Assembly (NCBI GenBank): GCA_030710605.1
Contig: CP092863.1
Coordinates: 141,948,580-142,012,579, forward strand
Length of the DNA stretch: 64,000 nucleotides
Source: Cordylochernes scorpioides
Taxonomy: Eukaryota; Arthropoda; Arachnida; Pseudoscorpiones; Chernetidae
Direction of reading: 5' to 3'
The translations under genes were made by a program, and so were the position numbers. Positions 14,574-40,264 of this stretch are shown in pieces. The stretch's first letter is position 1. Each line of letters opens with the position of its first letter. Below the pieces are notes generated by a model. It worked only from the letters and a program-made list of their open reading frames with translations. It ran no database searches and had not been told where the DNA came from.

Positions 14574-17500
14574 TCAGCGTCTTAAAAGGAATGGATGACC
14601 TGAAAGGCTAAGTTGACTAAATTGACGGGTGTTTTCTTTCAATTGTATTTTTTCTCTCGGTATTCGATTTGTTTTTATAATATCTTCTTCAATATAATAT
14701 TGTTCATCATCATCATTATAGTAATCTTCGTATGGTTTATTTTCGATGTAATCATGACTGGATATCATCTCAGACGAATCTTCTGTCATCTGCTGCGATG
14801 TTGTATGTGATGAAACTTTTGCGACAAAATAAGTTCTGCGTGGATGACCAAATGAGTCACTAGTTGAAGTAGATGTTGTTTCAGGTGCGCTGTTTGAAAT
14901 GGCTCCAAAATGTGGAATTTCACCCATATGGCATTCTTCTTGGTTTCTCCAGGTATGACTTGAAGGTATTCTTGGAGGTACCCTTCTTATTGCTTCAATC
15001 ATAAAAGGATGATTAAAACTACGATGTATACTTTGATTTGATCGGTTATGTTGATGCCAGCTTTGACGTTCATCTTGAAAACTCATTTTGTTTGGTGGCC
15101 ATCCTGAAAAATTGTATGGATTGGTGGTTGTTCTTGATTTGTAAGTAGGTTTAGAAGTTTGCTGGAAGTTTGTTGTTTGTTTCATATTTTGGGTAGGTCT
15201 TATTAGGGTGGTTTTCTGTGTTGAATCTGTTACTGATTCATTCATTTTCCCTGTTTGGGCAAGAAGAAGTTCTTGAATTTGTTGAAGTTTTTGTTCCATG
15301 TTTTCTACTCTTTTGACTAGAATGGATGGTACAGCTTTATTTTCAGTGGGTTGTTTTTGATTTCTAACTGTTGATTTCTTTTTCCAATCGGAATCATCCA
15401 TGTTTGACATTCTTGATGCAACTTGATGAGCAGCTGTATGTAATTGTTCTGTAATGTCAACTTGATGGGATCGCATTTTTCGATCGTGAAAACTTTCGGT
15501 TGGTATAAATTTACGATTACTTAAAGATGAACTTTGCATTTCTATAGAACTTGGGTAAAATGATGATAAATTGCCAAATTTTAAAAGGTTGCAAGTAGCG
15601 CATTGATTTGTATGATTGTGAAATTGTGATTCGTCAGCTAATTTATTAAATTCAGGCATGTTTAAAAATGGATATAATTGAAGATTGGTTGTCTTAAAAG
15701 TATCGTTTGGTCTAAATTTAGTATCTAAAGGTGTTATTTTTGATTCGTGATCATTTTTAAATCGAGTTCGAACAGAAATTTCTGATGTTTCGAAAATTGT
15801 TTTATCTTCTTGATCCCTATTTCGACATTTTTCGTGAACTTTACAGTTTTTTTTAATAGGACATCTATTTTTCCATTCTTCTTTATTTCTTCGGGGTGTT
15901 GGTATGAATTCGTGAGAGGCTTGTTTTTTCGAATCATGTTTCTTAATTACATATTCATACTTTTTGGCTCTTGAGATTTCAAAAGAGTCTTCCAATTCTG
16001 ATTCCATTTCTTTAGCCTTTTTTATATCCTTAATTTCGTGTTTTACATCTGTTCCTTCAAGGTTTTCGGGTCTTACATTTTTCTCGTCTGATATCATATA
16101 TAGCATTCTAGGTTTTGAATCTTTAACGTAATGACAATCAGGTGGTAAAGAATACTTTGGGTCGTGTTTTTTATAAATATTTTTAGATTTGACATATATT
16201 TCTTGAGGTATCGTACAGCTTTCTTTGGATTGTGCATATTTCTTTTTCGATTTTACATAATTTATTTTGGATTTCGCATATTTTTCTGGTTTTCTATCTT
16301 TTTCTATGAATTCTTGATAATAAAGTTTTGGTGTAATCTCTTGTGGTTTTTGATAAGTTTTGATTTCAAGGCTTATTTGTTTTTCTTCAGGAGTCGTATA
16401 CCCATCCATTGTATAGTCTTCTGCGTATGGTAATTTTTTTATTTTTGATTTTTCATATCTACTTTCAGGTTTGACAATTTTCTCTTTAGCTTCTACATTT
16501 TCTATTTCGAATTTCGAATCTTTTGTGATACTTTTCAAATATTTTCTATTGGGTTCGTAATCTTGAGCACCTTTTTCATCTTTTACTTCAGTTTTTATAT
16601 ATTTTTTATAAGGTTTTACATCTTTTTCTTCATTCTCTACCAATATTTCATGAGATGTTGAACTTTTTGTATGTTTTATTTTAGATCTTGTAAGTTTTAA
16701 TTTATTTATTGATAAATTGAATTGATCTGCTTTGTTCTTTTTTTCTTTATCTTTTATTTCGTTTTTATATCGTATGTCTATTTCATAGGGTTTTACTTCA
16801 TTTTCTTCAGTTAGTGAAGATATTTTTTCCGATATCGGTTCATTTTCATGGGATTTTATATATTTCATTTCAGTTATTATTGTTTTGATTTCAGGTAATG
16901 AATATTCAGATCTTAATTCTTTAACTTTAGGTTCAAATATTTCATCATTGCTTGAGGTTCTAATTATGACAGCTGGTGTTCTTACATGCGACCTTAAAAC
17001 TTTTTGTTCTGAACTTGATCGTTTGCTATGTGTAAATCGACTTTTTAAATTACCATCAAATTCTTTAGTATTATCTTCTTTTTCACGTTCCCTTCTATAT
17101 ATTTTCTTTTTGATTCCTGGTTTTAAAGATGAGGGTTTGAAAATTTCTATTCCACTTTTTATTCGAGATGCTATCGCTTTCTTAGTATCTGATAGTTTCT
17201 TTGGTGGTAATCCTTTCTTTAATTTCTTATCCAATTCCTCAGGTCTTTCAAATTTTTCTGATACACTTGTCGAACTTTTTTTTGATTTCCTTTTCAAAAT
17301 TTGCTCAAGATATCCTGCTGGTGTACTTTTAATTTCAATACCTTCTCTCCTTAAATCAAATAATTTCATAAGAAGTTTGATCTGATTCTTATCTGTAAAA
17401 TCAAATCCTTTTGGTATTTCTTCTTTTTGAGGCTTAGTGTTGAAGAATTTAGGGTTCTGGATTTCTGTAAAGGAAGTCATGATTCCAATATTTCTTCCTT

Positions 17501-18521
17501 GATGTTGTTTTATTTCACGGAGTGGTTTTTTACCTGGAGCTTTCCAATCAATAAGATCTTTTGAAAATTGACGAGCTAGTTTTTTAGAGTCAATATAAAT
17601 TCTTCTTTGAGTAGGGTATCTTGTGATAATTTCACGTGGAGTTGATATCAAATTACGAGGTGTGACAAATTTAATTTTCTTTGAACTTGAGACTTGAAGA
17701 TCTTTTTGATAAATAGCATGATTTGATTGAAGTTCTTCTTTAAGAAATGGAAAATATTCAGAAGATTTTGAACCAATTTGAGTTTCTTTTTCTTGTTTGT
17801 ATTTTAAAAGTAAATTTTCGATTGATTTTTCATTATGTTTTTTATATAAGTTTATAGGCCAGGTACATATGCAAGATGGATAATAGGAATTGTTTTCTAA
17901 GTATGATGTGTTATAGGTTGGTGAATTTTCATAAGTATACTCATAACCTACAGTACCTGGTGTGTTTGAAGTTTGAGATTGTTCTATATATTGGTTTCGA
18001 GGTGTATAATGCATTTCTGAAACTAAATTTTCGTAAAAATGTTTTTCTCCTGAAATATCTTCTGTTATTAATGTTTTTGCTGAACGTACATCTTTTTTGA
18101 TATTCGAAAAATCTTGAGAAGCATCTGTTTTGTATTGAAGTATATCTCTTTTTTGTATATTAAGAAATTCACATTGGCATAATGATGTTGATTCTTCACG
18201 GAATTCTTTATGAATTGTTTCTTGGACTTTAGTATCATGAGTATCATGAATTTCACGAAATGAAGGAATTATTTTTTCAGTACCTATTAATGAATTGTAT
18301 TGTTTGATTTGAGAATCTGGTTTTATTGATGAATATTGTTGATGACAGCAATTTGGATAATTTAACATTTTACTCAATCGAATAGATCCTTTTGGTATTG
18401 AAAAATCTTTTGATAAGCAATTACAATTTATTTCTGATGATTTTCTGGAAAGGAAAAATACTGGTCCTTCTTCTGAACCTTGTATACATTGACAAATTTC
18501 GTTCACCTCTGATATATTCAT
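14574..18521 (-). CDS. Nested ORF A: 1315-aa Lys/Glu-rich protein of unknown function
   Basis: This is a single uninterrupted frame of 3948 bases in very AT-rich DNA, which cannot be chance. It lies antisense inside intron 2 of the secreted-protein gene. No signal peptide or membrane segment is seen. The N-terminal 60 residues are Cys-containing (CQC, CNC, NCC). Residues about 285-410 look the most globular, with TPRNLISTPREI and a Leu-rich stretch, LLMKLFDLRREGIEIK. Residues about 460-900 are dominated by Lys/Glu/Ser/Tyr and are probably disordered or helical. A CATC motif lies near 974. A short coiled coil (RVENMEQKLQQIQELLLAQ) is near 1070-1090. The tail is Asp/Tyr-rich. Similar order and a similar coil occur in ORFs B and C, suggesting divergent paralogues. 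I recognise no known domain. Confidence 0.8.
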   Translation of the reverse strand: MNISEVNEICQCIQGSEEGPVFFLSRKSSEINCNCLSKDFSIPKGSIRLSKMLNYPNCCHQQYSSIKPDSQIKQYNSLIGTEKIIPSFREIHDTHDTKVQETIHKEFREESTSLCQCEFLNIQKRDILQYKTDASQDFSNIKKDVRSAKTLITEDISGEKHFYENLVSEMHYTPRNQYIEQSQTSNTPGTVGYEYTYENSPTYNTSYLENNSYYPSCICTWPINLYKKHNEKSIENLLLKYKQEKETQIGSKSSEYFPFLKEELQSNHAIYQKDLQVSSSKKIKFVTPRNLISTPREIITRYPTQRRIYIDSKKLARQFSKDLIDWKAPGKKPLREIKQHQGRNIGIMTSFTEIQNPKFFNTKPQKEEIPKGFDFTDKNQIKLLMKLFDLRREGIEIKSTPAGYLEQILKRKSKKSSTSVSEKFERPEELDKKLKKGLPPKKLSDTKKAIASRIKSGIEIFKPSSLKPGIKKKIYRREREKEDNTKEFDGNLKSRFTHSKRSSSEQKVLRSHVRTPAVIIRTSSNDEIFEPKVKELRSEYSLPEIKTIITEMKYIKSHENEPISEKISSLTEENEVKPYEIDIRYKNEIKDKEKKNKADQFNLSINKLKLTRSKIKHTKSSTSHEILVENEEKDVKPYKKYIKTEVKDEKGAQDYEPNRKYLKSITKDSKFEIENVEAKEKIVKPESRYEKSKIKKLPYAEDYTMDGYTTPEEKQISLEIKTYQKPQEITPKLYYQEFIEKDRKPEKYAKSKINYVKSKKKYAQSKESCTIPQEIYVKSKNIYKKHDPKYSLPPDCHYVKDSKPRMLYMISDEKNVRPENLEGTDVKHEIKDIKKAKEMESELEDSFEISRAKKYEYVIKKHDSKKQASHEFIPTPRRNKEEWKNRCPIKKNCKVHEKCRNRDQEDKTIFETSEISVRTRFKNDHESKITPLDTKFRPNDTFKTTNLQLYPFLNMPEFNKLADESQFHNHTNQCATCNLLKFGNLSSFYPSSIEMQSSSLSNRKFIPTESFHDRKMRSHQVDITEQLHTAAHQVASRMSNMDDSDWKKKSTVRNQKQPTENKAVPSILVKRVENMEQKLQQIQELLLAQTGKMNESVTDSTQKTTLIRPTQNMKQTTNFQQTSKPTYKSRTTTNPYNFSGWPPNKMSFQDERQSWHQHNRSNQSIHRSFNHPFMIEAIRRVPPRIPSSHTWRNQEECHMGEIPHFGAISNSAPETTSTSTSDSFGHPRRTYFVAKVSSHTTSQQMTEDSSEMISSHDYIENKPYEDYYNDDDEQYYIEEDIIKTNRIPREKIQLKENTRQFSQLSLSGHPFLLRR

Positions 18522-19159
18522 TGTAATACAGGTAAATATTGTGGTATTTTTATCAATTTATTATTATTATTATATTTTGAAGAGTTTTTTTCTCTTCCCT
18601 CTCTAAAATATATATTTTTTTATATAATTCAGACGTATATATTTTTTCAAAAGAATGATTTCATTTTTGCATTTATATATCTATATGCTTCAATTCATGT
18701 GGTATATATTCATCTTTTTTTTTTATTTGAAATTATTGAAAAAATCACGAAATTGGGGATTTTTTGCATTTCTCAATTAAATATAAAGATAGGTATTTTG
18801 AATATATGTTAACATTTAAAAATATAAATATAATATTAGGGTATTCACAGAGGGAGAACTTTAGAATATATTATTTAAATATTTATCAAAATAATAAAAT
18901 TAAATTCTATTTTTTTTTTCTGTTCAACTTTTTTCAAATAAATTGTATGAAGTTATTTTTGAATTGAATTTTCGATGGGAAAATGAATTTAAAGTTCTTT
19001 TTTGTTGATTTTTTCATAAATATAAGTTTTTAATAATATTTGGCAATAATTATATTTAAAAATCTCATTTTGATATCTTACATTTTTACATATTTCTGCT
19101 GCATACTGGCCCTGAACACACATACACAAAATATTTATGCAAATTAAAATTTATATATA
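18522..19159 (-). promoter_or_regulatory. 5' flank of nested ORF A
   Basis: Extremely AT-rich with no competing ORF. The promoter of ORF A should be here, but I cannot identify core elements. Confidence 0.25.
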
Positions 19160-19335
19160 CAGTTAAACCTGTCTATAGCGCCCCCTCTTGGAACTCACCA
19201 AAATAGAGTGCTATAGAGAGGGGATGCTATAGACAGGTCACTTTTAATGTAAATCGAATCGTACTACGTATTTAAAATCGGGCGCTATAGAGAGGAAGTC
19301 GCTATTTAGAGGGTAACTTTAGACAGGTTTAACTG
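19160..19335. mobile_element. TA-flanked MITE with CAGTTAAACCTGTC ends
   Basis: This 176-bp element has inverted ends (CAGTTAAACCTGTCTA and its complement), flanked by TA at 19158-19159 and 19336-19337. The interior has the sub-repeat GCTATAGAGAGG three times, so it folds on itself. Pogo/Tc1-like by its ends and target. Confidence 0.85.
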
Positions 19336-19610
19336 TATATGATATGGTTTTTGATGATTTGAGAGGTGTTCAGACGATTAGTCGTGGAATAAAGGGATGT
19401 ACGAACACACAAAAAAACCCAGGATTTTCAATGATGAACCTCACAATCAAGGAGTGAAAGAAAGTCAGAAAATATCCGGTCAATGACACTGTTTACATTA
19501 GCTCGCGACCTCGAGTGACACTCAGGCTGCGTCTGGTCAAACAGCCTGTTCCAATTTGTCTTCAATCGACCTCTTGTTCCACAAAATTTGGATGAGGTTC
19601 TCGATCCCTT

Positions 19611-20168
19611 ATTTACATAGTAGTAACATATAGGTAACCCAGGCTCCTGGAGCGTATCCATAGATCTCCAACTACCCTCTATTTACATAGTAGTAACATA
19701 TAGGTAACCCAGGCTCCTGGAGCGTATCCATAGATCGCCAACTACCCCCTATTTACATAGCAGTAACATATAGGTAACCCAGGCTCCTGGAGCGTATCCA
19801 TAGATCGCCAACTACCCCCTATTTACATAGTAGTAACATATAGGTAACCCAGGCTCCTGGAGCGTATCCATAGATCGCCAACTACCCCCTATTTACATAG
19901 TAGTAACATATAGGTAACCCAGGCTCCTGGAGCGTATCCATAGATCGCCAACTACCCCCTATTTACATAGCAGTAACATATAGGTAACCCAGGCTCCTGG
20001 AGCGTATCCATAGATTGCAAACTACTCCCTATTTACATAGCAGTAACATATAGGTAACCCAGGCTCCTGGAGCGTATCCATAGATTGCCAACTACCCCCT
20101 ATTTACATAGTAGTAACATATAGGTAACCCAGGCTCCTGGAGCGTATCCATAGATCGCCAACTACCCA
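19611..20168 (-). repeat. 70-bp minisatellite, eight units, in a LINE 3' UTR
   Basis: Units start at 19611, 19681, 19751, 19821, 19891, 19961, 20031 and 20101, exactly 70 bp apart, with only a few substitutions (TAGTAG/CAGTAG, ATCGCC/ATTGCC). The array lies directly downstream of a LINE ORF2 tail on the - strand. A single related GGTAGTTGGCG block follows the LINE tail at 41450, which suggests the unit comes from LINE 3' UTR. Confidence 0.9.
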
Positions 20169-20389
20169 GGCTGTCCTGTAATTTAGGAGTCAGTCTTGGT
20201 AGCCTTAGTAAACCAGTTCACCAAGTGTCTCCAGGCCGGTCTTGGTAGATTCAACAGTGCAGCACTGATGAAAGAGGACAGTCCAAGGAGTGGAGTCGTC
20301 TGGAATCGCTGTAGTTGGAATGATAGGGACAGTTGTAGATGACATGCTCCATTTTTACAGTATTGAAATGTTATCTGTCGTATGTTCAC
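20169..20389 (-). pseudogene. LINE ORF2 C-terminal remnant
   Basis: The - strand shows a degraded knuckle region (VIYNCP in one frame) and, after frame changes, the terminal HLVNWFTKATKT followed by a stop. This resembles FLVNWFNSAIKT at the end of the LINE fragment ending at 41410. It is frame-shifted and 5'-truncated. Confidence 0.6.
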
Positions 20390-25217: not shown

Positions 25218-25427
25218 TATACTGAAAATTTTTTAAAGTTGCTTCAACAAATAAATTTAGAATAATTCATTATACCCTAGTCAAAATTGTTCATCAAACA
25301 AAAAAAAAAAAGAGTTTGAATTGCAATATATTTCATTATGTTAATAAGTATAATACAAGTTTTACGTTCATTAATTTCCAGAACTGGTTGAAAATATATT
25401 TTTTAAAAAGCTAAAGAAAAAAGGTTA

Positions 25428-26780
25428 TACATAGTTAAATAATGGACATTTGACCACAGCTGAATGAAAGCACGAGTCACATGGCGCATGCGCCGATCTA
25501 AAAACAAAAGAAAAAAACAACCATCCTTGTATTTCTATTTTCAAAATGGCCGTTTTCGAAATGTAGAGAATCTGCAGTAAGTTTTGTTTTAAATTTTAAA
25601 AAGTAGTACTGAGACGCATGAATTGATTAAAGAAGCTTTTGGCAATGCTGCTTTATCCAGTACAATAACTTTTGAATGGTTTTTCACGCTTCTAAAAGGG
25701 TTGAGAAGAGGTAAACGATGATCAACATACTGGGCGTCCAAGAACATCATGTTGTGAGGTAAACAAGCTCAAAATAAAGGAATTAATCAAAGCTAACAAT
25801 AATTTCTATTAAAGACTTGTCTTTACAGATTGGTCTATCTATAGGACTGTCATCAAATGGTAACAAAAGATTTGGACATGATATGGACGTCTTCAAAATT
25901 TGTTCCCTGGATTCTAACGGAGAACAAAAGGAGGTTATAATGGAATTCTGCCAAAACATGATCAAAATGACTCGGATTGATCCAGAGTGGAGTCAAAAAA
26001 TTATTACCTGGGACAAGACATTGGCATATCAGTATGACCCGGAAACCAAATTTCAATTCAGCCAATGGATTAAAAGAGAGGAACCGAATCCCAAAAAGAC
26101 AAGATTTTCAAAATCCAAACTCAAGACATTGCTTGTTACATTTTTGGTTTCCGGTTCATACTAATACACCCATGTCTCATCCCCGTGTATGAATTTTGAC
26201 TCCACTCTGGATCAATCTGAGTTATTTTGATCATGTTTTGACAGACTTCCATTCTAACCTCTTTTTGTTCTCCGTTAGAATCCGGAAAACAAATTTTTAA
26301 GACGTCCATATCATGTCCAAATTTTTTGTTACTATTTGATGACACAGTCCTACAGATAGCCCAGTCTGTGAAGATAAGTCTTTAATAGAAATTCTTCTGT
26401 TATAGCTTTGATTAATTCCTTTATTTTGAGCTTGTTTTCCTCGCAACATAATGTTCTTGGACGCCCAGAATGTTGATCGTCGTTTACCTCTTCCCGACCT
26501 TTTTGTAAGCGTGAAAAACCGTTCAAAAGTTCTTTAACGATATAAAACAGAATTGCCAAAAGTTTCTTTAATCAATCCATGCGTCTCAGAAGAATTTTTT
26601 AAAATGTAATACAAAACTTAATGCAGATTCCCTGCTCTTCTAAAACGGTCATTTTAAAAATAGAAGTATGAACGCTACAAGAAAGTTGTTTTGTTCCTTT
26701 TTTTAGATCTGCGCGTGCGCCACGAGACTCGTGCATTCAGCCAGGCGTGGTCAAATGTCCAGTATTTAACTGTTTATAAT
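25428..26780. mobile_element. Foldback mariner: two 5' halves facing inward
   Basis: The outer ends share an inverted ATGGACATTTGACCAC-like sequence. The left arm (to about 26160) and the right arm (from about 26165) are inverted copies of the same mariner transposase 5' half. In both, the 3' half with the remaining catalytic residues is missing. No single frame encodes a transposase. Confidence 0.8.
25610..26160 (+). pseudogene. mariner transposase 5' half, degenerate
   Basis: In broken frames it shows the N-terminal helix-turn-helix region (IKEAFGNAA...) and the linker. It then shows the first catalytic block in altered form (IITWDKTLAYQYDPETK, where mariners usually have GDE). This is followed by PKKTRFSKSK. 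There are multiple stops and frame shifts, and no second or third Asp block before the inversion point. Confidence 0.75.
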
Positions 26781-26972
26781 ATTTTTTTCTATCTTTTTTA
26801 TTATTATTTTATTTTTTAACCTGTCCTGTATAAATTATAATGAACTCACCTTGTATTACTTTTTTTTTTGCCAGTAAACTATGAAATAAACTAAATGATA
26901 AGTACTTTTTTTTTTTGTAAATAGAATTTTTTAAATAAAATTATGTACCAACCTTTTTTTAATCAGACGAAT

Positions 26973-26978
26973 TTTATT
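26973..26978 (-). terminator. Poly(A) signal AATAAA of nested ORF B
   Basis: Canonical hexamer on the - strand about 16 bases after the stop codon of ORF B. Confidence 0.55.
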
Positions 26979-26993
26979 GAGCTTGTAATTTTG

Positions 26994-29900
26994 TTACATT
27001 GTAAAAAAACAGGGATCATCAAATCTTGCACAACTAGGGCAAAAAATTGGACTTTCATCGTCAAAACCTGGAGGATAATTTTCCCGTACAATATTCCTGT
27101 TGCAAGGGTCGTTTGGATTATAATTTTCCCGTGCAACATTTCTGTTGCAAGGGTCGTTTGGAAGATCATTTTTCCGTACAACATTTCTGTTGCAAGGGTC
27201 GTTTGGAAGATAATTTTCCCGTACAACATTTCTGTTGCAAGGGTCGTTTGGAAGATAATTTTCCCGTACATTTCTGTTGCAAGGGTCGTTTGGAAGATAA
27301 TTTTCCCGTACAACATTTCTGTTGCAAGGGTCGCCTGGAAGATAATTTTCCCGTACATTTCTGTTGAAAGGGTCGCCTGGAATATAATTTTCCCGTACAT
27401 TTCTGTTGAAAGGGTCGTCTGGGTTATAATTTTCCCGTACAAAATTTCTATTGCATGTGTCGTCTGGGTTATAATGTTCCCGTACAAAATTTCTATTGAT
27501 TCTTTCACATGGATAATAATTTTCCATTCCAACATCCCTATTACATGTATCATCTGGATGATAATTTTCCAGTAGAAAATTCCTATTGCGTGGATCATCA
27601 TCAAAATTTAAATCAAATGTATCATGGCAAAAAGATGTCAAACCTCTTTCGTTATAGCTCATTTGGAACTGTTTTAGTTTGCGACTCATTTCATCTTCCT
27701 GGTTCATTTTGAGAAAGTTATAGATAATATCCAATTGGCAATTCATATCTTCAACTCTATTTAGAAGTTGTTTATAGCTGTATTGGTCGGGTCGTATTGG
27801 TGTAAATTTATCTTCTGTGGGTCCCATATCGTGTTGGAAGTTGGTTGGACATATGTTTTTATCTGGGAGACAGCATTGGTGTTCTAAAGATGGCATGTGA
27901 TCTCCCCAAGTTGGCTTAGATGGTTGGAAAGTGCATTCTGAATCCCATTTTGATTGGTTCTGTTGTTGGCGAAATGAGTAAGAATGTTTATGTTGCTCCC
28001 AATCTTGAAAACAACACGAATTATATGGAGGGAAATGGCAACTTGTATCAGTATCATTTGAAATACAGCAGCTTTGATGTTGTTCGCAGGGAAGTTGTTC
28101 TTCCGATTGGCATGGTATGACATTCAGAAAAGGAAAACATTCGTCGCTTGGAGGTCGTGAACAAGTTTCAGGTGATGGTGTTGTGGGTTGTTGGGGTTGT
28201 GGTTTTTCCGGGGTGGTTTTCGTTGGAAATATCAGTATTGAGAGTCGTTTTGAAAGCGATTTTTTCGACGGTTTTGATGGATTTGGCTGTATTTCTGAGG
28301 GTTGTGCTGGAGTTTGAGTTGGTTTTTGCTCTATAGGCATTGTGATAGACTCTTCTGGCGATATTGATTGTGATGAGGGTTGGATGGACGGTTGTTCTTG
28401 AAGTGGCTGCTGGGATTTGACGCTTGGTTGTCTTGGTGGTATTTTTGGCGGCGGTGATGGTGGCGGTGGTGGTGGCGGTGGTGGTTCTGGTTGGTTTGGT
28501 ATTGGTTCCTTTGGCAGTTCTGGTGTTGGTTCTGACAATTTTGGTGCTGGTTCTGACAATTTTGGTGTTGTTTCTGACACTTTTGGTGTTGGTTCTGACA
28601 GTTTTGGTGTTGGTTCTGGTAGTTTTGGTAGATAGGGTTCTAGTTTTTCAGGTGCGCATGGTTCTTCTGCTTGTGAACATGTATATTGTTCTTCTGGTAC
28701 GCTTTTTGGAAGTGATTCTGGAGGCAGTTTTGGGGGATATGTTTCTGGAGGCAGTTTTGGGGGATATGTTTCTGGTTCGGCTTTTGGTAAGCTTAATGGA
28801 TATGTTTCTTCTGGTAATTTTGTTACTTTTCGTTTTTGTCTTACTTGGTGTTTTGATGATCTTTTTTTTAGCTTACATCGTTCTGATGATTTTTTTGGCG
28901 TACATGGATCGGTTGATTTTTTTGAAGAACATGGTACAACTAGTCTTTTTGGTGGACGTGGTTCTAATTCATCAGATATTTTTAGTTCTGATTTATTCTT
29001 GAATTTTGGACGTCTCTTGGGTTGTTGGCATGACTGAGGTGAATACTCGCGGTGATCAGGATTTTTGCATTTAAAGGATTGTAATTTTTGTTTCGAATCA
29101 CTTGATCTTTTACGGCTTCTTGAGTGAGATCTGGGTCTTGTTTCCATTTCATCAGTCTTGATGAGAGTTGGTGCTCTCCTTTTTGACCTAAGTCCTATAT
29201 CTCTTTCCTCTAATTCTTCATCATTCCCCTTTCGTTTTCTTTCTTCAGCTTTAGTACTTTTCAAACCCGTTTTAGCTCTATCATATATTCCTCTTTCACA
29301 TTTTTTATAAGATATATGTTTTGTTTTAGGTTTAACACTCCATCTTTTAGGATCTACGCCTACTATAGGTTCTAAATAATCTTCTTCTGTTTTCATATAT
29401 TGTTCTTCGTCATTCCAATCCATTTCTTCTTTAGAGGACAACTCGTCTTCCTGTTTGAAAAATCTTTCATCACGTTTTAATTTCATCTCTTTTACTTTAG
29501 CCTCTCTAGCTTCTTTTATAAGTTGGATGTCGAATCCTTTAAGCTTCTTTTCTTCTTTTTCAGGCCTCACCACTTTCATTGCGTTAGATTTTTCTACTCT
29601 GTAGGTTTTACTCTTCTTACCGCAAATATTACAGATAGGGGTATAGGTACTTGATTGACGGGATAGTGAGTAAGACTCAATTGCTTCTCTTTTTGGACTT
29701 TTACTTAATAGGCTAAACATAATTTGATAAAATTCTTTGTCTTCTTTATTTTTTACTTTAGCTAACTCTAATAGTTTATTCCTATTATCCATATCCTCAA
29801 ATTCTGACTTTATTTTTGTCCTGTCTTCGATATTCTTAGTTGTTTTGCCTTTATAGGAATAGGTAATCCGTTCTTTGCTAGGTTCGAATTTTTCTTTGAT

Positions 29901-30959
29901 AGTTTTTGGGATCCTTCTTGTAAATTGAATGTATTCTGTTCGGGTTGAGGTTGGTATTTCGAAATCATCTGTATTCGTTTCATGTTCGTAATTTGATTTT
30001 TCTATTTCACTCTCTTCAGAAAGCTCCGATGTAAATTCCTGCGTGCATATCATTTCAAGAAGTCCAAATGGACGTGCCGAAAATGCAACTTGGTCTGATT
30101 CATCTAAATCGATATCATAAATACATTTTTCTATTGGAATTTCACTTTGTTTATCTTCTGTATTCAATAGATAATTTAGAAAATTGATTTTCGTAAAGGA
30201 AATACTTTCTAAAGATGAATCTTCGACGATAAATGGCTTTTTATTTTCACTATCCTTTAAGGATTCTAACTGTAATGAATTGTATTTATGAGCAGAAGAT
30301 ATTTTCGAATCAATCGTAGTTGATGATAACTGTTCTTTGATTTCTTTAAATTCACTTGGGATTCCTCTACTTAAAAGAGTTTGTCCAACTCTTGCAATAT
30401 CATCATACATTTGTGCATTTCGGCGGTAGGTTTGTCGTTTATATTGAAGCAGTTTTTTAGAAAGACTTTCTTTTTTGAAAGTCTTAACTATAGGTAGACG
30501 TCCAATGGATTCTTTTCGTGTAAGCCTAATTGGATTTTCGTATAATCCGCACGTGCAAAACGAAACATCATCACCGATATGGGAATTTAAAGGAAAATTG
30601 TTATTCTTTGTATAAATAGCTTCTGAGATTAGCGAAGTTTCTTCGCATGACATTGAATCAAATTTACTCGTATTTTCTTGATTGGGTGAAGATGAATAAT
30701 AAAAGATGGGTTTCTTATCGTCGCTCAGTTTGACAATTTGATTTGGTAAAAGGGGATATGGAAAAATAAAATGTTTACCGTCTGTTTTCAATTCTCTTCT
30801 CCCATGATTTTTCATCGAATATTTAAAACCTTCTTTTAATAATTGTGTTCTTTTCCCTTTTTTGAAATGAATGCCGCTTGAGTCACAAAAACAAACTTGA
30901 GCAAAAGATAAACTGCTCTCGTAATTGTGTATGGACGACAGAAAAGAATTTGAAGTCAT
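26994..30959 (-). CDS. Nested ORF B: 1321-aa Pro-rich, repeat-tailed protein of unknown function
   Basis: This is one uninterrupted frame, antisense in intron 2, in the same orientation as ORFs A and C. No signal peptide or membrane segment is visible. The N-terminal half is charged, with short Cys motifs (VCFCD, FCTCG, CNICG at about residue 440). Residues about 560-700 are basic. Residues about 715-890 are Pro-rich with PTPKLSE-type repeats and a run of consecutive prolines. A short coiled coil (RVEDMNCQLDIIYNFLKM) lies at about 1065-1085. Residues about 1125-1296 are some 12 units of a 14-15-residue repeat (RENYLPNDPCNRNV type), each with one Cys. The protein ends CPSCARFDDPCFFTM. It has its own poly(A) signal. 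The modular layout suggests a structural or scaffolding protein. I recognise no family. Confidence 0.8.
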   Translation of the reverse strand: MTSNSFLSSIHNYESSLSFAQVCFCDSSGIHFKKGKRTQLLKEGFKYSMKNHGRRELKTDGKHFIFPYPLLPNQIVKLSDDKKPIFYYSSSPNQENTSKFDSMSCEETSLISEAIYTKNNNFPLNSHIGDDVSFCTCGLYENPIRLTRKESIGRLPIVKTFKKESLSKKLLQYKRQTYRRNAQMYDDIARVGQTLLSRGIPSEFKEIKEQLSSTTIDSKISSAHKYNSLQLESLKDSENKKPFIVEDSSLESISFTKINFLNYLLNTEDKQSEIPIEKCIYDIDLDESDQVAFSARPFGLLEMICTQEFTSELSEESEIEKSNYEHETNTDDFEIPTSTRTEYIQFTRRIPKTIKEKFEPSKERITYSYKGKTTKNIEDRTKIKSEFEDMDNRNKLLELAKVKNKEDKEFYQIMFSLLSKSPKREAIESYSLSRQSSTYTPICNICGKKSKTYRVEKSNAMKVVRPEKEEKKLKGFDIQLIKEAREAKVKEMKLKRDERFFKQEDELSSKEEMDWNDEEQYMKTEEDYLEPIVGVDPKRWSVKPKTKHISYKKCERGIYDRAKTGLKSTKAEERKRKGNDEELEERDIGLRSKRRAPTLIKTDEMETRPRSHSRSRKRSSDSKQKLQSFKCKNPDHREYSPQSCQQPKRRPKFKNKSELKISDELEPRPPKRLVVPCSSKKSTDPCTPKKSSERCKLKKRSSKHQVRQKRKVTKLPEETYPLSLPKAEPETYPPKLPPETYPPKLPPESLPKSVPEEQYTCSQAEEPCAPEKLEPYLPKLPEPTPKLSEPTPKVSETTPKLSEPAPKLSEPTPELPKEPIPNQPEPPPPPPPPPSPPPKIPPRQPSVKSQQPLQEQPSIQPSSQSISPEESITMPIEQKPTQTPAQPSEIQPNPSKPSKKSLSKRLSILIFPTKTTPEKPQPQQPTTPSPETCSRPPSDECFPFLNVIPCQSEEQLPCEQHQSCCISNDTDTSCHFPPYNSCCFQDWEQHKHSYSFRQQQNQSKWDSECTFQPSKPTWGDHMPSLEHQCCLPDKNICPTNFQHDMGPTEDKFTPIRPDQYSYKQLLNRVEDMNCQLDIIYNFLKMNQEDEMSRKLKQFQMSYNERGLTSFCHDTFDLNFDDDPRNRNFLLENYHPDDTCNRDVGMENYYPCERINRNFVREHYNPDDTCNRNFVRENYNPDDPFNRNVRENYIPGDPFNRNVRENYLPGDPCNRNVVRENYLPNDPCNRNVRENYLPNDPCNRNVVRENYLPNDPCNRNVVRKNDLPNDPCNRNVARENYNPNDPCNRNIVRENYPPGFDDESPIFCPSCARFDDPCFFTM
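27062..27565 (-). repeat. 42-45-bp coding minisatellite in ORF B
   Basis: About 12 units, each translating to RENY-x-P-x-DPCNRN-V or -VV. Units differ by whole codons, so the frame is kept. The 42-bp and 45-bp variants (one or two Val) are interspersed, a sign of recurrent unequal exchange. Confidence 0.85.
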
Positions 30960-31440
30960 TACTTATACATATTGATCATAAAAAAAAGTATTACAATTTT
31001 TAAATTTGATTGGGACTCTTAAAATATGTTTTATCTTAGAATTTTTTTTTATAAAGCGTAATATCCTTTTAATGTTTAGAAGTTATTTCTAAAAGTTTCT
31101 TTTTATAGGTGTGTGTATAATTCACTATATTATTATTTTTTAAATTAATTTATATATATATATATAATTTATAATTATTATATTATATGTTATTTTTATT
31201 TTATTATAGAAGTTATATATTTTTTGTTGTTTTCTTAAAGTTTTTTTTCTCTAACGTAGTCACGTGTATTTAACTTTGGTTAGGTTTTTCATTTATTTTT
31301 GAAAAAAATAATATCAATACATTTGACTATTGTTTTCTCTTTCTGTCTGGTTTATTCCGTGAAAACCTAAAAAAACAAAGAAGAGATATCAGAAAACACA
31401 TGAGGTGTGCATATGTGTAATAATAATAGTGAAAATAATA
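30960..31440 (-). promoter_or_regulatory. 5' flank of nested ORF B
   Basis: Very AT-rich, with no ORF. The likely location of the ORF B promoter, but no motif can be assigned. Confidence 0.25.
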
Positions 31441-31442
31441 TA

Positions 31443-32502
31443 CACTAACGGACAAAACTTAGGGAAGTTATACCTTTTAGCATGTATATTAGGATTCAGA
31501 TAATAACTCTGAAAGATATTACAGTGACCTTTATTGAAGACATACGAGATAACCAAGTGTGTATACACTCATGGACAAAACTTAGGGAAATTGTACATTT
31601 TACCATGTATATCGGGATTCAGACAATAACTCTGAAATATATTACAGTGACTTTTATTGAAGACACACGAGATAACCAAGTATATATACACTCATGGACA
31701 AAACTTAGGGAAATTGTACATTTTACCATGTATATCGGGATTCAGACAATAACTCTGAAATATATTACAGTGACTTTTATTGAAGACACACGAGATAACC
31801 AAGTGTATATACACTCTCATAGACAAAACTTAAGGAAGTTTTACCTTTCAGCATGTATATCGGAATTGAGACAATAACTCTGAAAGATATTACAATGACT
31901 TGTATTGAAGACATACGAGATAACCAAGTGTGTATACACTCATGGACAAAACTTAAGGAAGTTGTACCTAGCATGTATATCGGGATTATGACAATAACTC
32001 TGAAAGATATTACAGTGACCTTTATTGAAGACACACGAGATAACCAAATGTATATACACTCATGGACAAAACTTAAGGAAGTTGTACCTTTTAGCATGTA
32101 TATCGGAATTGAGACAATAACTCTGAAAGATATTACAGTGAATTTTATTGAAGACACACGAGATAACCAAGTGTGTATACACTCATAGACAAAACTTAAA
32201 GAAGTTGTACCTTTTATCATGTATATCGGGATTGAGACAATAATTCTGAAAGATATTACAGTGACCTTTATTGAAGACATACGAGATAACCAAGTGTGTA
32301 TACACTCATAGACAAAACTTAAGGAAGTTGTACCTTTTAGCATGTATATCGGAATTGAGACAATAACTCTGAAACATATTACAGTGACCTTTATTGAAGA
32401 CACACGTGATAACCAAGTATAGACAAAATTGTCCCTGTCTCCTTCAAAAAAAAAAAGACGACAACAAAGGATTTCCACTTCCTTAAGTTTTATCCATGAG
32501 TG
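31443..32502. mobile_element. Tc1-like MITE with an internal 122-bp tandem array
   Basis: The ends CACTAACGGACAAAACTTAG and (inverted) CACTCATGGATAAAACTTAA are flanked by TA at 31441-31442 and 32503-32504. Inside are about eight units of 120-125 bp, with GACAAAACTTA at 31451, 31573, 31697, 31822, 31945, 32065, 32188 and 32311. Each unit repeats part of the terminal sequence. A single-unit relative is at about 47210-47432. Confidence 0.85.
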
Positions 32503-32884: not shown

Positions 32885-33019
32885 AATAGAATGGTGCTAA
32901 TGTATAACTGACACTTTTTTATTCTAAGATGATCTTAATAAAGTAGAGTACCTATCTGTACAGGACAATACTTAGTTGCAGAGTCAAAATGTCTTTTAGA
33001 GAGAGGTTTGTTCTGTCTC

Positions 33020-33796: not shown

Positions 33797-33814
33797 TTTT
33801 TTAATGGTCTCCAT

Positions 33815-34165
33815 AGGTGAGTGTCCTGAATTTGCCAAAGATGGTGTTATGATTTTGTCACCAATCCAAGTCAGCTAGTTTACAAAGACGTTCAATAGGT
33901 TTCGTGCCTATTTTGACATAAAAGGTTACCTTTACAGGTTACCTTTATATATTTTCAGGTCCTTTATGGATCTCGTTGAATAAAGTCTGCCCTAGGCTGA
34001 CGAGGGCCATTAGCCCGAAACCATGGTCTCTAGGTGGACGTTTCTCAGTTTGCCAAAGCTGGTGTTGTGGCTTTGTTACCGACCTGAGGCCGCTAGTTTG
34101 CGGCGACGGTCAATAGATGGTGTCTAGCTTTGACGTCTATTTTGACGTGAGAGGTGACCTTTGTC
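33815..34165 (+). repeat. Pair of diverged direct repeats
   Basis: Blocks at about 33815-33925 and 34030-34160 share TTTGCCAAAG-TGGTGTT, GCTAGTTT and CTATTTTGACGT. A shorter relative is at 32590-32635. A 'foldback family' block (GACGAGGGCCATTAGCCCG) lies between them. Non-coding. Confidence 0.5.
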
Positions 34166-34753
34166 TTTGTATATATATATATATATATATTCTCATATAT
34201 ATCGAAAAAAAAAAACGAAAAAGAAATAACGTTTATTGAAACGCGTTCAAGCTATTTCTTTATATTTTAATGGCATTAAAACGAATGTGAAATTTGAAAT
34301 AATCTCATAAGCATTTGTGAGAAATTTTATTTTATTGTAATCCGAATTTTTGGATGCCCGCAAAATAAAAACGAAGAGTTCACTTTTCAATGAAGTATTG
34401 AACACCGTTCAAATATAGATATTTCGGTTTGCAGAACTAGATTCGGTTATAAAAATAATTCTAAAAACTATGGATGATTTCACAGGTTATGATTCCATTC
34501 TTGTCTAGCTTTTCCCGATGCCATAGACATTGCCGGGGATAAAAGTATTGGAGAAAAATCTACCTGTAAAAAAAAAATGAAAGAATTCCAACTAAGCTTT
34601 CTTTTTTTAGGATGATATTTGATCCTATTGACCCATAAAATCATTGTCGAGTTTGTTTTTCTCTTAAACATCTATTTTTATAGGATATTATTCAAGAAAT
34701 ATTGTTCTTCTTGATATTCTTTTTTTCCTTAAATCTGTATTGAAATTCTTCAG

Positions 34754-37700
34754 TTACTGGTCAGTTCTTTTTGAAATAATATCACACATTTGATCTAACG
34801 TTTTATCTATTTCTTTAAATCTTTCCGTAAGTTCGTAATTCACGTAGGGATTGTTCATTTGAGATTCAATTGGTGTTAATCTTGAAGTTGAAGGTCCATT
34901 AAAATTGGATTGTCTTAAAGCTATGATTTCTGCAGAAGAAGGAGGATTCGGTCGTTTGCTACAAAATTCTGTATCTAAAAGATAACTTAATGGATATAGG
35001 TACGAAGAAGAATAATAGCTTTGGAAACTGCCTCTTGAATATGGAGAATATCTGGCTGAGTTTTCCGAAGAAGAGGAGGATGTGCAAGATTCCAAAGGAA
35101 CTCTTTGAAATTGATCTGACGGCCTAAAAGTAGAGAGATCACATTGGCTTGTTCTTGAACCTCTATAAAGATTGCTTTTTTTCATTATCGTATCATGGGT
35201 ATAATTAATATTGGATGCTAAACTGCATTTTGATGGGAAACGTGGTTTCATAGCGAAAATAGGATAATAAGTATATTTGGATTGCTTTCTTGAATCTCTT
35301 TTTAATCCGTATTCTTCCATCGTACTAAGAGGAAAGCCGATTGACTTCGTTTTAAACAAGAAAGGTTCTTGTTCGGGTAGATAGCAAAGGAATTTACATT
35401 CTTGCAAATTTGACCGATAGGTTGGTGATGGGTCGTTAGGTTTTTGGAAATTGAATACATATGAAGAAGATGTTAGGATGTTACATTTTGGCTCTTCCCT
35501 ATCAGGACCACTTTTGATGTCAAATATGACATCGTTTTTTATCGGCCAGGGGCCATTTTCTTCTCCAACTGGTATTGATAAATTTCTCTTTTGTGACTTA
35601 TGTGGGTTTGAAACGAAAGATTGGCGTCTTGTTGACTTTCTCTTCATTTCGGAATCTTTTTCCGTGGTTCTTACTGATTTTTTGATACTTGAATGACGGG
35701 ATTGATAATCCTGTCGTTTTGATGGTTTCTCATCCATTATTTCTTTCTTGTAAGAAAACCATTTAAAATTTGTATCCCTATGGTCTTCTTTATATTTAGT
35801 GAAGCTATCCAGTTCTTGTTTTGAATCTTTCTTGCGAGAAGGTCTTTCGAAGGATTTATGATCTTCTTTCCGCTTATTGGACATACACGATTCTTGTGCC
35901 CCTCCTGTATTGAAGGAAGACCAATCTAAACATGTATCTCTATGCTCTTCTTTACGTTTTGTGGCATTTTTTTCCAGTTCTCGTGCCATATCTTTCTTGC
36001 GAGAAGGTCTTTCGAAACACATGTCTATGTGCTCTACGAACTGCTTATGGATATTGTCTATGGGTTCTTGTGGTAGTTTCCTGTCAGCTATTCCATATTC
36101 TTCCTCACAAATTTTTTGCAAAGCTCTATACAAATATTCTTCGGTTTCTTGTTGAGCTGCTTTCATTTTGGGTTTGCATATTTCCTCATGCTCGTCTTTT
36201 ATTTCTTTCGGTATCTTTATAGGTTCACAAATGTCTTTTTTCTGTATTACTGTAGTGTCTGAGGTTTTCTTTGTGAGTTCACATATATCTTCGTGCTTAT
36301 CCTTCATTTCTTTCGACTGCTTTACATGTTCGTATACGTCTTCATTTTGTACGCACGAAGTTTCTGATAATTTTATTTCAGGTTCGCATACCGTTTTTTC
36401 TTCTTTTTCGGTATTTTCTGTCAATATAGTTTGGGGTTCTGCCGTTTCCTTTTTGGGTTCAACTAATTCTTCTTTCGATTGGCATATATTTTTCTTGACA
36501 TGTTCGGGCATGTAGACTTCCTCTTCGTCTTTTTCTGTGGTGACTTTGTTTTTAGAGTCGAGCATTTCTTCTTTTTTGTCGTCGATATCTTTTGAAGTTT
36601 TCTTTGTAAGTTCTCCTTCGTCGTCTTTGATCTTTGACGATTTCTTTTCAAGTTCAACTACGTTTTCAACTATTTCTTTACTACCTATTAACTCAGCATA
36701 TTTTACCTGGGATGTTGAATATTTATGTTCTTCCATAATATCTATCGATTTCTTTTTGGGTTCAGTTATTTCTTCTTTGATCTTTTCCACAACTTCCTTC
36801 ATCTTCTTTTTAAATTCGTATATTTTTTCTTCTTGATCTTCCTTAACTTCTTTTAGTTTCTTTTTTAGTTCAAAAATCTCCTCCTTTATTTCATCTTTGA
36901 ATTTATCTGCATCTGGTTCATTCGTTTCTTCTTCTACTTTATCCTTAATTTCTAGTGTTTTTGTTATGGTTCCACAGATTTCTTCTTTTTCTGCATCTGT
37001 AAGTCCACAGCTTTCCTCTTCCTCATCTTCCTTAAGTTCTATAGCTTTCCTTTTGGGATCATCGGTGCCTTTTTTCTGTATAACCTTAGCTTCTGAGCAT
37101 TTTTTCTTTAGTTCAATCATTTCTCTTTTTCGTTTTTCATCACATTCTGTGTTTTTATTTACAAATTGATACACTTCTTTTTGCTCTTCAATTTCATAGG
37201 TGATTTCGATCAATTTTCTCTTGAATTCACTAATTTTTTCCTTTCGTTTTTCCATTAATGCTGTCGTTTTTCTTTTGGGTTCACTCATTTGTCCTTCTTT
37301 GGTTGTTTTTCTCCGGGGTTCGTCGGTTTTTTCGGGTTCAAATTTTTGTTCCTCTAAATCCATCGCCATGTCGGAAGTTTGAGATGATTCGGATAGAGCC
37401 TCCAACTCACAAATTTGTCTTTGCTTGATTTTACTTTTTTCCCCTAACAAATATTTCCTTTTTTCCTCTTCGTTTTTATATTCCCGTCCTGTCGTTTTCC
37501 TTTCTTTAGGTTCAAATGTATCTAATATACATTGTCTTATCTTTATTTTCTTTTTTAACCTATCTTTTTCAAGCTTATGCTTTTTTTCTTTGGAATCTAA
37601 TGTTTTTCTCTCAATATTTTCATCTTCTTTCTTTTCTTCACCTTCTATTTTCACTCGCTTCATTTGTAAACCACCTTTTTTGCTCGGCCTATGTGATTGT

Positions 37701-40264
37701 GTTTTTTTCGTATCTGTAGGCTCGAACTTTTCTTGTTTCATTCTTTCTTTCTCTTTGGCTTTATTCGTTTCAATCAAATCAATAGAGGTTCCCTCTTTTT
37801 CGTCTTTCCTTCTTTTTAAAAATTTGTGTGTATCTGGTTTCTCCTTTATCTTTTCTCCTATTTTTTCCTTTTTTACTTCGATGTCCTTTGTCTTCCTTAT
37901 TATACCGCATTGAGATTTATTACATCCAACTTCATTTAAAATTTCAGTTGTTTTTATCTCCATTTTATTTTCTTTTGGTCGATATGGTTCTTTTAGAGCT
38001 GTCTTTTGTTCTTTCATTTTCTTTTTATATAAGCGTGTGTCTACAGGCATTTGTGATATATCTTTTGGTTCCCGCCACCCAATTTCTTCTGCTTTCTTTT
38101 TGGATTCTTTAATTGGTTCTATTCCATCAGTTTCTGTTTTCCTTTTATGTTCAAACCGCTCTATATAAAATTGTTCTCTAATTTCTGTTAGCTTCCCCAT
38201 CTGTTCTCGTTTTACTAATTTGTCATTCTTAATTTCTGTTAATTCTTTTTTAGATTTACCGACTTGTTGTTTCTTTTTATTTTCATCTCCTTTAGTTTCT
38301 TTTAGTTCAACTTGGGGTACGTCTTTTCTCGATGCTTTTTTCCTTTCACCAATTTCCTCATCTTTTTTTCTTTGTGATTTTATAGGCGGATTCTTTGGAA
38401 TCGATTCTTTTAATTTCTTCTGCTCAATTCGATGCTCCTTACTTCCTTTCGTTTCTCGTTTAATTTCTTGTTCGTCTGGTTTTTCGGCCTTTTTTTCTTT
38501 CTTTATCACTGCAGCGCTTGCTAATTTGATTTTAGATGATGATTCACCTTTCGATTTGTTCGAAGTGGTTGCTAAATGACTAGTACTTTTTCTTGTTTTC
38601 GGGAAGGGTACCTTATCTTTCATTTTTTTAAAAACCTGAGGCTTATTCAGAATTTGGATCTGAAATTGTTCGTCAGTCTTGGCATAATTTGGGTATGAAA
38701 AGTTCTCTTGTAGGATATATTCTTCTTCATAATCCTGCGTTGCCATCATCTTATCAATGATTACTGTTTCGGATAGTTGAAAAGGTAATCTTGTAGCGGT
38801 GTATTTTCTTTGTCTTGAAATGTCGTGATCTGGCATATTTGATACTAGTTGAAACTGAATTCGAAAAGAATCGTCCAAGTCCCGCATTTTTCTAGATCTT
38901 TGGCTTTTTTGGGGAATAGTATCATCATCAAGGTTTTGCTTAATATGTCCCTGCCTGATATTTGATTCTAGAAATTTAGCTTGTTGTCTAGATTTCAGCT
39001 TGCTTTTTCCCGATTCTAAAGAAGAATTGGGTGAGGGTTTAATAAAATACTTGTGATAATTTTCTTGAATGTGATGGCTTGGGTTGTAGATGGATTTAGG
39101 AAAATTGGATTTTTTGAATATAAGGTATTCGCAGGAACTTGAACATGATGATAGGTCTGAATCAGGGAAATAATAGCAAACGGCATTTTCACGCTGGTTC
39201 AACCACTCTTGATTTGCTTTTTCTGGATAATTAGAAATATTTTGGTTGGATAAGTATTTTAGCTGCCAATCCTCATAACTTCTTAGTTGAAGATCGTCCT
39301 CGTAGCTGGGATCTACCATAGAATAAACTGGTTTGACATCTGTAGTCCATTTGGGAAAGAGCTGTCGTAGGATGTTCCCTAGTCTTTTTCTTGCAAAAAG
39401 TTTCTGTTTTTCCGGTACAAAGTAATTCTCACTTGCCGATTTCGGATACCTCTTCGTTTTTGTTGATTCTGGAGGCTCGAATCTCTGTGCCGAGTCTAAA
39501 ACTTCTTTCGGACCTTTTTTATTTTTGAAGACATTGTTTTCGCCAACTTCTTTCGTGAAATCCCATCGTCTTTCCAAATTCCTTTTGGGAACTTTATGAA
39601 CGTCCATTTTAAGTGGGTCAATGGAGGTATATCCTTTGTACGGATATGATCTTTCTTCGAGAAGACTTTCATTCTTAGAATACTCAAGATAATCTTCCTT
39701 AAGAAACTTGTGAAGTCTTCCTTCGCTTAAAGAATCGAATGGATGGTGATCAAGAAATGTATCTTCTCTTTCTTTGTAATAATACGATCTTTCTTCTGGG
39801 ATAATTTCTTTCTTAGCGTATTCGAGATAATCCGCTTCGGGAAACTGGTGAAATCTTCCTTCGCTTAGGGAATTAAATTGTATTGAATAATCTTGATCGG
39901 ACAATACGGGAAGTATTTTATTATAAGTACCTTGAATCTGTTTTGACGATGATGAATCTTTAGGGGCATTTTTTTCTCTTAATCTCTTGCTTAAGGTATA
40001 TAGGTCATCCTTTTGATAAGGTCTACATGGAATTCTTTGGTCTTCTGCTTGGATTTTTGGAGGCGAACTTATTTTGGCTTCTGTTTGCCTTGGTAATTTT
40101 TTTAAATAGGTACATCCGCCCGTGAAAGAGTTCTTTTCTAGTATAGTATAAGCATTTGGGTCAAGTCTTTTGATATTTAAAAATGGACTGGAGGAAAATA
40201 TAGCAGCATTCGATTTTCTATCCTCATTAATATTTGATTTAGGATTGAAATTCTCAGGATTCAT
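34754..40264 (-). CDS. Nested ORF C: about 1836-aa Lys/Glu-rich protein of unknown function
   Basis: This is an uninterrupted frame, antisense in intron 2. The frame stays open upstream to an ATG at 40399. I prefer the Met at 40264 (MNPENFNPK), because the 45 residues before it are Ile/Tyr/Lys-rich in the manner of translated AT-rich leader DNA. If the upstream Met were used, those residues could mimic a membrane anchor. Residues about 128-215 contain a tandem duplication of some 42 residues (FNSLSEGRFHQF / FDSLSEGRLHKF). Residues about 560-1365 are a very long Lys/Glu-rich, probably helical or disordered stretch. FERPSRKKD repeats occur near 1420-1480. The C-terminus is a short coil, LTERFKEIDKTLDQMCDI. 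No known domain is recognised. Confidence 0.8.
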   Translation of the reverse strand: MNPENFNPKSNINEDRKSNAAIFSSSPFLNIKRLDPNAYTILEKNSFTGGCTYLKKLPRQTEAKISSPPKIQAEDQRIPCRPYQKDDLYTLSKRLREKNAPKDSSSSKQIQGTYNKILPVLSDQDYSIQFNSLSEGRFHQFPEADYLEYAKKEIIPEERSYYYKEREDTFLDHHPFDSLSEGRLHKFLKEDYLEYSKNESLLEERSYPYKGYTSIDPLKMDVHKVPKRNLERRWDFTKEVGENNVFKNKKGPKEVLDSAQRFEPPESTKTKRYPKSASENYFVPEKQKLFARKRLGNILRQLFPKWTTDVKPVYSMVDPSYEDDLQLRSYEDWQLKYLSNQNISNYPEKANQEWLNQRENAVCYYFPDSDLSSCSSSCEYLIFKKSNFPKSIYNPSHHIQENYHKYFIKPSPNSSLESGKSKLKSRQQAKFLESNIRQGHIKQNLDDDTIPQKSQRSRKMRDLDDSFRIQFQLVSNMPDHDISRQRKYTATRLPFQLSETVIIDKMMATQDYEEEYILQENFSYPNYAKTDEQFQIQILNKPQVFKKMKDKVPFPKTRKSTSHLATTSNKSKGESSSKIKLASAAVIKKEKKAEKPDEQEIKRETKGSKEHRIEQKKLKESIPKNPPIKSQRKKDEEIGERKKASRKDVPQVELKETKGDENKKKQQVGKSKKELTEIKNDKLVKREQMGKLTEIREQFYIERFEHKRKTETDGIEPIKESKKKAEEIGWREPKDISQMPVDTRLYKKKMKEQKTALKEPYRPKENKMEIKTTEILNEVGCNKSQCGIIRKTKDIEVKKEKIGEKIKEKPDTHKFLKRRKDEKEGTSIDLIETNKAKEKERMKQEKFEPTDTKKTQSHRPSKKGGLQMKRVKIEGEEKKEDENIERKTLDSKEKKHKLEKDRLKKKIKIRQCILDTFEPKERKTTGREYKNEEEKRKYLLGEKSKIKQRQICELEALSESSQTSDMAMDLEEQKFEPEKTDEPRRKTTKEGQMSEPKRKTTALMEKRKEKISEFKRKLIEITYEIEEQKEVYQFVNKNTECDEKRKREMIELKKKCSEAKVIQKKGTDDPKRKAIELKEDEEEESCGLTDAEKEEICGTITKTLEIKDKVEEETNEPDADKFKDEIKEEIFELKKKLKEVKEDQEEKIYEFKKKMKEVVEKIKEEITEPKKKSIDIMEEHKYSTSQVKYAELIGSKEIVENVVELEKKSSKIKDDEGELTKKTSKDIDDKKEEMLDSKNKVTTEKDEEEVYMPEHVKKNICQSKEELVEPKKETAEPQTILTENTEKEEKTVCEPEIKLSETSCVQNEDVYEHVKQSKEMKDKHEDICELTKKTSDTTVIQKKDICEPIKIPKEIKDEHEEICKPKMKAAQQETEEYLYRALQKICEEEYGIADRKLPQEPIDNIHKQFVEHIDMCFERPSRKKDMARELEKNATKRKEEHRDTCLDWSSFNTGGAQESCMSNKRKEDHKSFERPSRKKDSKQELDSFTKYKEDHRDTNFKWFSYKKEIMDEKPSKRQDYQSRHSSIKKSVRTTEKDSEMKRKSTRRQSFVSNPHKSQKRNLSIPVGEENGPWPIKNDVIFDIKSGPDREEPKCNILTSSSYVFNFQKPNDPSPTYRSNLQECKFLCYLPEQEPFLFKTKSIGFPLSTMEEYGLKRDSRKQSKYTYYPIFAMKPRFPSKCSLASNINYTHDTIMKKSNLYRGSRTSQCDLSTFRPSDQFQRVPLESCTSSSSSENSARYSPYSRGSFQSYYSSSYLYPLSYLLDTEFCSKRPNPPSSAEIIALRQSNFNGPSTSRLTPIESQMNNPYVNYELTERFKEIDKTLDQMCDIISKRTDQ

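Follow-up and report, generated by a model that had tools for sequence, protein, structure and literature searches.

Three long minus-strand open reading frames of a pseudoscorpion as probable single-exon genes for large, basic proteins predicted to be disordered

Internal nested genes are typically short and intronless, are mostly located on the strand opposite to that of their host, and are often testis-specific in Drosophila (Assis, 2021, PMC8467205). A large protein for which no relative was found has been described in an Anopheles mosquito: AAms, a testis-expressed orphan protein of 1188 residues encoded by two exons (Krzywinska and Krzywinski, 2009, PMC2713267). Here, we analyze three long open reading frames (ORFs), designated A, B, and C, in a window of 64,000 bases of the genome of Cordylochernes scorpioides (contig CP092863.1; G+C content of 34.6% according to base counts). 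They resemble the nested intronless genes of Drosophila and mammals, as summarized in the former source (PMC8467205), by their single-exon coding sequences, plausibly located in a large intron on the opposite strand, but they differ by their size, since A to C contain 1315 to 1836 codons and occur three in a row, and by a nesting that is only plausible. They share with AAms, as summarized in the latter source (PMC2713267), the large size of the product and the lack of detected relatives, whereas AAms has two exons and demonstrated testis expression and A to C have single-exon coding sequences. Literature searches, which covered few subscription journals, showed no report of nested genes this large among the papers listed, and no priority is claimed. 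Intronless genes nested on the opposite strand and biased toward testis expression form a class already known; the size of A to C is unusual.

Coding status and gene ends

ORF A (positions 14574 to 18521, minus strand) encodes a protein of 1315 residues (predicted mass of 155 kDa, pI of 9.3) rich in lysine, serine, and glutamate, with a GC3 of 0.18. ORF B (26994 to 30959, minus strand) encodes 1321 residues (154 kDa, pI of 8.2) rich in proline, lysine, glutamate, and serine, with a GC3 of 0.25. ORF C (34754 to 40264, minus strand) encodes 1836 residues counted from the first ATG (217 kDa, pI of 9.0, 15.5% lysine, 12.6% glutamate), with a GC3 of 0.29; it appears in the ORF list with 1881 residues counted from an upstream TTG. 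These are the three longest of the 14 ORFs of at least 150 residues listed for the window. An earlier note on this DNA, which reported three same-strand ORFs of 1315, 1321, and about 1836 codons, was correct on number, orientation, size, and coordinates. Its description of the ORFs as intronless holds for the coding sequences, each of which is in a single exon, and reaches the coding sequences only, not the 5' leaders.

To obtain a null expectation for ORF length, sequences were simulated with a first-order Markov model based on each ORF's own dinucleotide make-up (100 simulations per ORF). The longest stop-free runs were 121, 183, and 159 codons for A, B, and C, respectively. Thus, the A-richness of the coding strand does not account for the ORFs. 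Each ORF has 52 to 158 stops in its five remaining frames. The periods of tandem repeats were divisible by three in all nine rows starting within the ORFs and in both rows of a Pao element (see below), versus 5 of 26 rows elsewhere; the independent arrays are fewer than nine since rows overlap, several of them corresponding to one array. The spacings of the two-copy repeats located within the ORFs (261 nt in A, 138 and 165 nt in C) were also multiples of three in three cases out of three. A tandem repeat inside B (27068 to 27599, minus strand), around ENYLPNDPCNRNVVR, consists of units spaced by 45 or 42 nt, corresponding to 15 or 14 residues. Comparison of these units, which are few and mutually related and therefore provide weak evidence, led to pN/pS ratios of 0.68 for all 12 units and of 0.53 for 10 of them, after omission of two divergent units. 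For the nine 15-residue units, again few and related, the ratio in the true frame (0.70) was the lowest of the six frames (0.83 to 1.18 for the others). Coding constraint, as proposed in the earlier note, is supported by ORF length relative to the null model and by the repeat periods, and weakly by the pN/pS ratios. Based on these sequence features, there is a high probability that all three ORFs are real protein-coding genes.

An in-frame stop is located 39 nt (A), 6 nt (B), and 153 nt (C) upstream from the ATG codon. All three ORFs have a purine at position -3 of the ATG and their own stop codon. An AATAAA hexamer starts 45 nt after the stop codon of A (14523 to 14528, minus strand) and 15 nt after that of B (26973 to 26978, minus strand), in agreement with the claim that two of the ORFs are closely followed by such a hexamer. 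There is none near the end of C, the first being found 417 nt past the stop. The chance of finding AATAAA within 45, 15, and 417 nt, evaluated at noncoding positions of the minus strand, is 0.098, 0.035, and 0.553, respectively. Because of the upstream stops, the purine at -3, and the AATAAA sites, A, B, and C seem to be individual genes and not parts of a single multi-exon gene. An acceptor-like site (9 pyrimidines out of 10) is present 47 nt upstream from the ATG of C. Since the minus strand contains 0.16 such sites per 300 nt, and the stretch examined amounted to 1200 nt, a 5' intron is not claimed for C. The 9-mers common to the three 5' flanks were four A/T runs.

Two decayed transposon copies facing each other (25404 to 26800), mariner-like according to their GDETW...PETK motif, form an imperfect palindrome of 1.4 kb with arms that are 76–92% complementary. 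The palindrome ends about 190 bases past the stop codon of B. Read-through RNA from B into this palindrome could fold as a long hairpin and thereby be a source of small RNAs.

Plus-strand surroundings of the ORFs

The earlier note placed the three ORFs in a single intron of 32 kb, between exons 2 and 3 of one gene. Exon-like stretches of the plus strand do flank the ORFs. The candidate upstream host exon (11530 to 11728, plus strand) is followed by a perfect donor (CAG/GTAAGT) and leaves in phase 1. The candidate downstream host exon (46630 to 46859, plus strand), in which one base completes the previous codon, has the donor AAG/GTAAGC and also leaves in phase 1; further plus-strand exon-like stretches are found at about 47565 and 48870. 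The acceptor at 46630 requires phase 2 and the two candidate exons, which would enclose about 34.9 kb, cannot be joined in frame. Among the 11 AG sites listed between 46540 and 46679, only that at 46647, a poor acceptor, fits phase 1 and stays open. The phase mismatch would be explained by a missing exon, by use of the poor acceptor at 46647, or by the presence of two different genes. These stretches thus do not confirm a single intron of 32 kb, although other exons, none of which was named, may have been meant. Judging from these sites, nesting of A, B, and C in an intron of a plus-strand gene is plausible.

The window contains additional repeats and elements. A tandem array of 123-nt units (31439 to 32418) separates B from C, and a single 72-nt stretch copied from part of this unit (47266 to 47337) lies by itself near the downstream candidate host exon. 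Members of a dispersed repeat family, 61–85% like the reference, are present at 13342, 33507, 48185, 52646, 58662, 59907, and 61466. They carry a B box like that of tRNA genes (GGTTCGATTCC or a near variant) and are probably tRNA-derived SINEs. A mariner-like transposase fragment (1261 to 1938, plus strand) displayed HTH and Transposase_1 matches below cut-offs. A Pao/BEL retrotransposon (53636 to 58015; DUF1759 and Peptidase_A17), with an in-frame 36-nt tandem repeat in its first frame, is associated with direct repeats of 300 nt starting at 53259 and at 58138; insertion was probably recent since these repeats are 99% alike. A full-length match to U6 snRNA (50956 to 51061, minus strand; Rfam, 77.6 bits), either a gene or a retropseudogene, lies near an array of a 74-nt satellite. 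Finally, 45 copies of a 23-nt satellite (62338 to 63373) run into a methyltransferase-like frame (63280 to 63699, minus strand; Methyltransf_11, 21.8 bits for a cut-off of 21.2; Methyltransf_12 below cut-off), making the exon end of this frame uncertain.

Predicted proteins and their relationships

No Pfam family was detected above cut-off for A, B, or C, and there was no match in NCBIfam, in keeping with the mention in the earlier note that no domain was recognizable. PHROGs provided no family for the ORFs at an E value of 0.1, and protein family and structure libraries provided no credible match for A, B, or C. The matches of B to Tachystatin_A (E value of 0.028, 14.9 bits for a cut-off of 25) and of C to a chain named DerF7_binder2 (E value of 0.29) were taken as chance. 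Pattern searches in IMG/VR led to 4, 2, and 11 matches for A, B, and C, respectively, and searches in GTDB to 90 and 4 matches for A and B, none of which was confirmed as a relative. Since these two collections hold viruses and prokaryotes, the missing relatives say little about animals.

The three proteins are basic and rich in lysine, glutamate, and serine, plus proline in B. FoldIndex was negative in 91% (A), 93% (B), and 95% (C) of 51-residue windows. AlphaFold2 models obtained from single sequences had a mean pLDDT of 46 for residues 931–1315 of A and of 31 for residues 901–1321 of B, low values that do not prove disorder in models built without an alignment. Prediction supports mostly disordered proteins. 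In these C-terminal models, the only 10-residue blocks with a pLDDT greater than 70 were those of A 1071–1090 (91 and 88), in a predicted helix extending from residue 1067 to 1101 (15219 to 15323, minus strand) and containing RVENMEQKLQQIQELL; two further helices of the A model had lower confidence. Three of the four helices of the B model, all of low confidence, were predicted at residues 1062–1104 (27648 to 27776, minus strand; block pLDDT of 34–41), in the region of LLNRVEDMNCQLDIIYNFL. The short helix near the C-terminus is probably a coiled coil. A weak period of 18 residues was detected in residues 601–1440 of C (lags of 18, 36, and 54; z of 3.2, 3.0, and 2.0), and the top lags in residues 301–900 of A were 14, 34, 53, and 7 (z of 3.2, 2.9, 2.8, and 2.6), these being the best of 59 lags per protein in stretches picked by eye. 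Mst101(2) of Drosophila hydei is a lysine-rich repetitive sperm-tail protein. The lysine- and glutamate-rich body of C, with its cysteines and weak 18-residue period (z of about 3), may be reminiscent of this protein.

BLASTP comparisons among A, B, and C revealed no significant similarity. The motif RVE(N/D)M...L..I is present in A and B about 250 residues before the end of the proteins, and a similar stretch, LTERFKEIDKTLDQMCDII (34757 to 34837, minus strand), which aligns with this helix motif, ends C. This C-terminal motif was noticed before being tested. When the last 300 residues of the three proteins were matched without gaps, it was the top triple, and 23 of 450 local shuffles attained its score. 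When the full-length proteins were compared, it was slightly exceeded by another triple, and its score was attained by 127 of 150 shuffles. With part of the motif hidden, the test picked a different triple, reached by 174 of 200 shuffles, as expected by chance. A possible second motif of A and B, near the N-terminus, was reached by 148 of 2000 shuffles.

Pairwise comparisons were performed for five segments, two modes, and three pairs, with shuffling in blocks of 20 residues. Five of the resulting 30 comparisons, four for B–C and one for A–C but none for A–B, were below 5%. The full-length B–C score was reached by 0 of 100 shuffles in both modes (z of 3.5 and 3.2); this match was set aside as evidence for kinship and read as composition because the alignment follows lysine- and glutamate-rich stretches. 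The full-length A–B and A–C scores did not depart from chance, since 53 to 80 of 100 shuffles attained them. For the last 450 residues, 1 of 300 shuffles equalled the B–C score in each of the two modes and 4 of 300 equalled the A–C score in the global mode, whereas A–B was at chance (157 and 106 of 300). The local alignments of this segment terminate in the C-terminal motif for both A–C and B–C, and the B–C alignment counts for kinship because it leads into that motif. Local duplication, proposed in the earlier note, is thus left with a weak hint from the C-terminal helix, set against the BLASTP result and the mixed outcome of the shuffles. A common origin of A, B, and C is possible from these comparisons.

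Origin and possible role

Several explanations were considered for the three ORFs. Frames that are open by chance or decayed, or that result from an assembly artefact, would agree with the failure of the viral and prokaryotic collections to yield a relative, but are contradicted by the length test, the repeat-period and spacing tests, and the intactness of three frames, and we give them almost no credence. Capture from a mobile element, such as a large DNA virus of insects, would account for single-exon genes with AT-rich third positions, since the GC3 of the ORFs (0.18 to 0.29) is lower than that of three candidate host exons (0.54, 0.68, and 0.69), the value for the exon near 47565 being taken from the more G/C-ending of its two open frames. 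The ORFs are nearer to the fourth exon (0.34), and A is poor in G at fourfold sites (0.04, versus 0.12 for B and 0.13 for C), as is the host exon at 48870 (0.03). The database searches also argue against capture, no family having been found in Pfam above cut-off or in PHROGs and no IMG/VR match having been confirmed. Inverted pairs of at least 20 nt bracketed A (1 of 8 pairs), B (4 of 21), and C (5 of 16), but all bracketing pairs were matches between A/T runs (20–26 nt, 75–90% complementary), and no direct repeat of at least 40 nt brackets any of the ORFs. Capture is therefore very unlikely.

Two further explanations concern the formation of the cluster by copying. The ORFs could be retrocopies that were then duplicated locally, as the earlier note suggested, the processed mRNAs having been put into the intron by a LINE. 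Coding sequences in a single exon would be expected in this case, a putative non-LTR-like open frame is close by (40943 to 41407, plus strand), and A-runs of 11 and 10 are present 77 and 124 nt past the stop codon of B. The longest word common to both 600-nt flanks (11, 12, and 12 nt for A, B, and C) was equalled by 28, 13, and 13% of 300 random pairs, the 1 kb that follows the stop codon contained no A-run of at least 8 in either A or C, and BLASTP similarity is absent among the three proteins. The case against retrocopies made by these results is weak because old copies can lose such marks; with flank words at chance level and A-runs behind B only, the sequence leaves a retrocopy origin unsupported, and we consider it improbable. 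It is less doubtful, albeit still unlikely, that the genes arose by very old tandem duplication of a common single-exon founder and diverged beyond recognition save for the C-terminal helix. The common strand, the similar composition, the almost equal lengths of A and B, the rank of the C-terminal motif in the last 300 residues, its coincidence with the confident helix of A and with three of the four helices of the B model, and the last-450-residue alignments of C with A and B that end in it are in favor of duplication. The full-length and masked three-way tests, the N-terminal motif, the BLASTP results, and the prior recognition of the C-terminal motif count against it, as does the chance-level score of the last 450 residues for A–B, the length-matched pair.

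Tandem duplication concerns origin and is compatible with the reading that we tentatively prefer, namely that A, B, and C are three lineage-restricted genes whose single-exon coding sequences specify large, basic, and mostly disordered proteins that have a structural role in the germline. Each would be an RNA polymerase II gene of its own, with the entire coding sequence in one exon, and their products would combine low-complexity bodies rich in lysine, glutamate, and proline with a short helix near the C-terminus. The genes may be fast-evolving and lineage-restricted, as very old tandem duplicates or as genes born separately and kept together. Charged disordered proteins occur outside the germline too, which counts against the germline component of this reading, as the lack of BLASTP kinship, the absence of an in-frame join in the host-gene model, and the lack of an AATAAA near C count against the whole. 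Germline expression is a reasonable guess by analogy and fits the trends published for nested genes (PMC8467205). Expression would be chiefly in the male germline, where the proteins may have a structural or packing role, for example in the sperm tail or nucleus, the disordered charged body filling space and the C-terminal coil binding itself or a partner. Were the genes nested in a plus-strand gene, restricting their antisense transcription to the germline would spare the host gene from interference. In a broader and more speculative scenario, which is improbable as a whole, an array encoding giant disordered germline structural proteins would have grown by tandem duplication within one intron, neighboring copies would have diverged so rapidly that a C-terminal coiled coil is all that remains alike, and the intron would act as a protected nursery for new large proteins.

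Gene finders expecting introns or known domains could merge or miss such genes. If nested, A, B, and C would stand out by their size in a class whose members are described as short, and would offer a test case for the speed at which similarity is lost in disordered proteins whose frames stay open over 1300 to 1800 codons.
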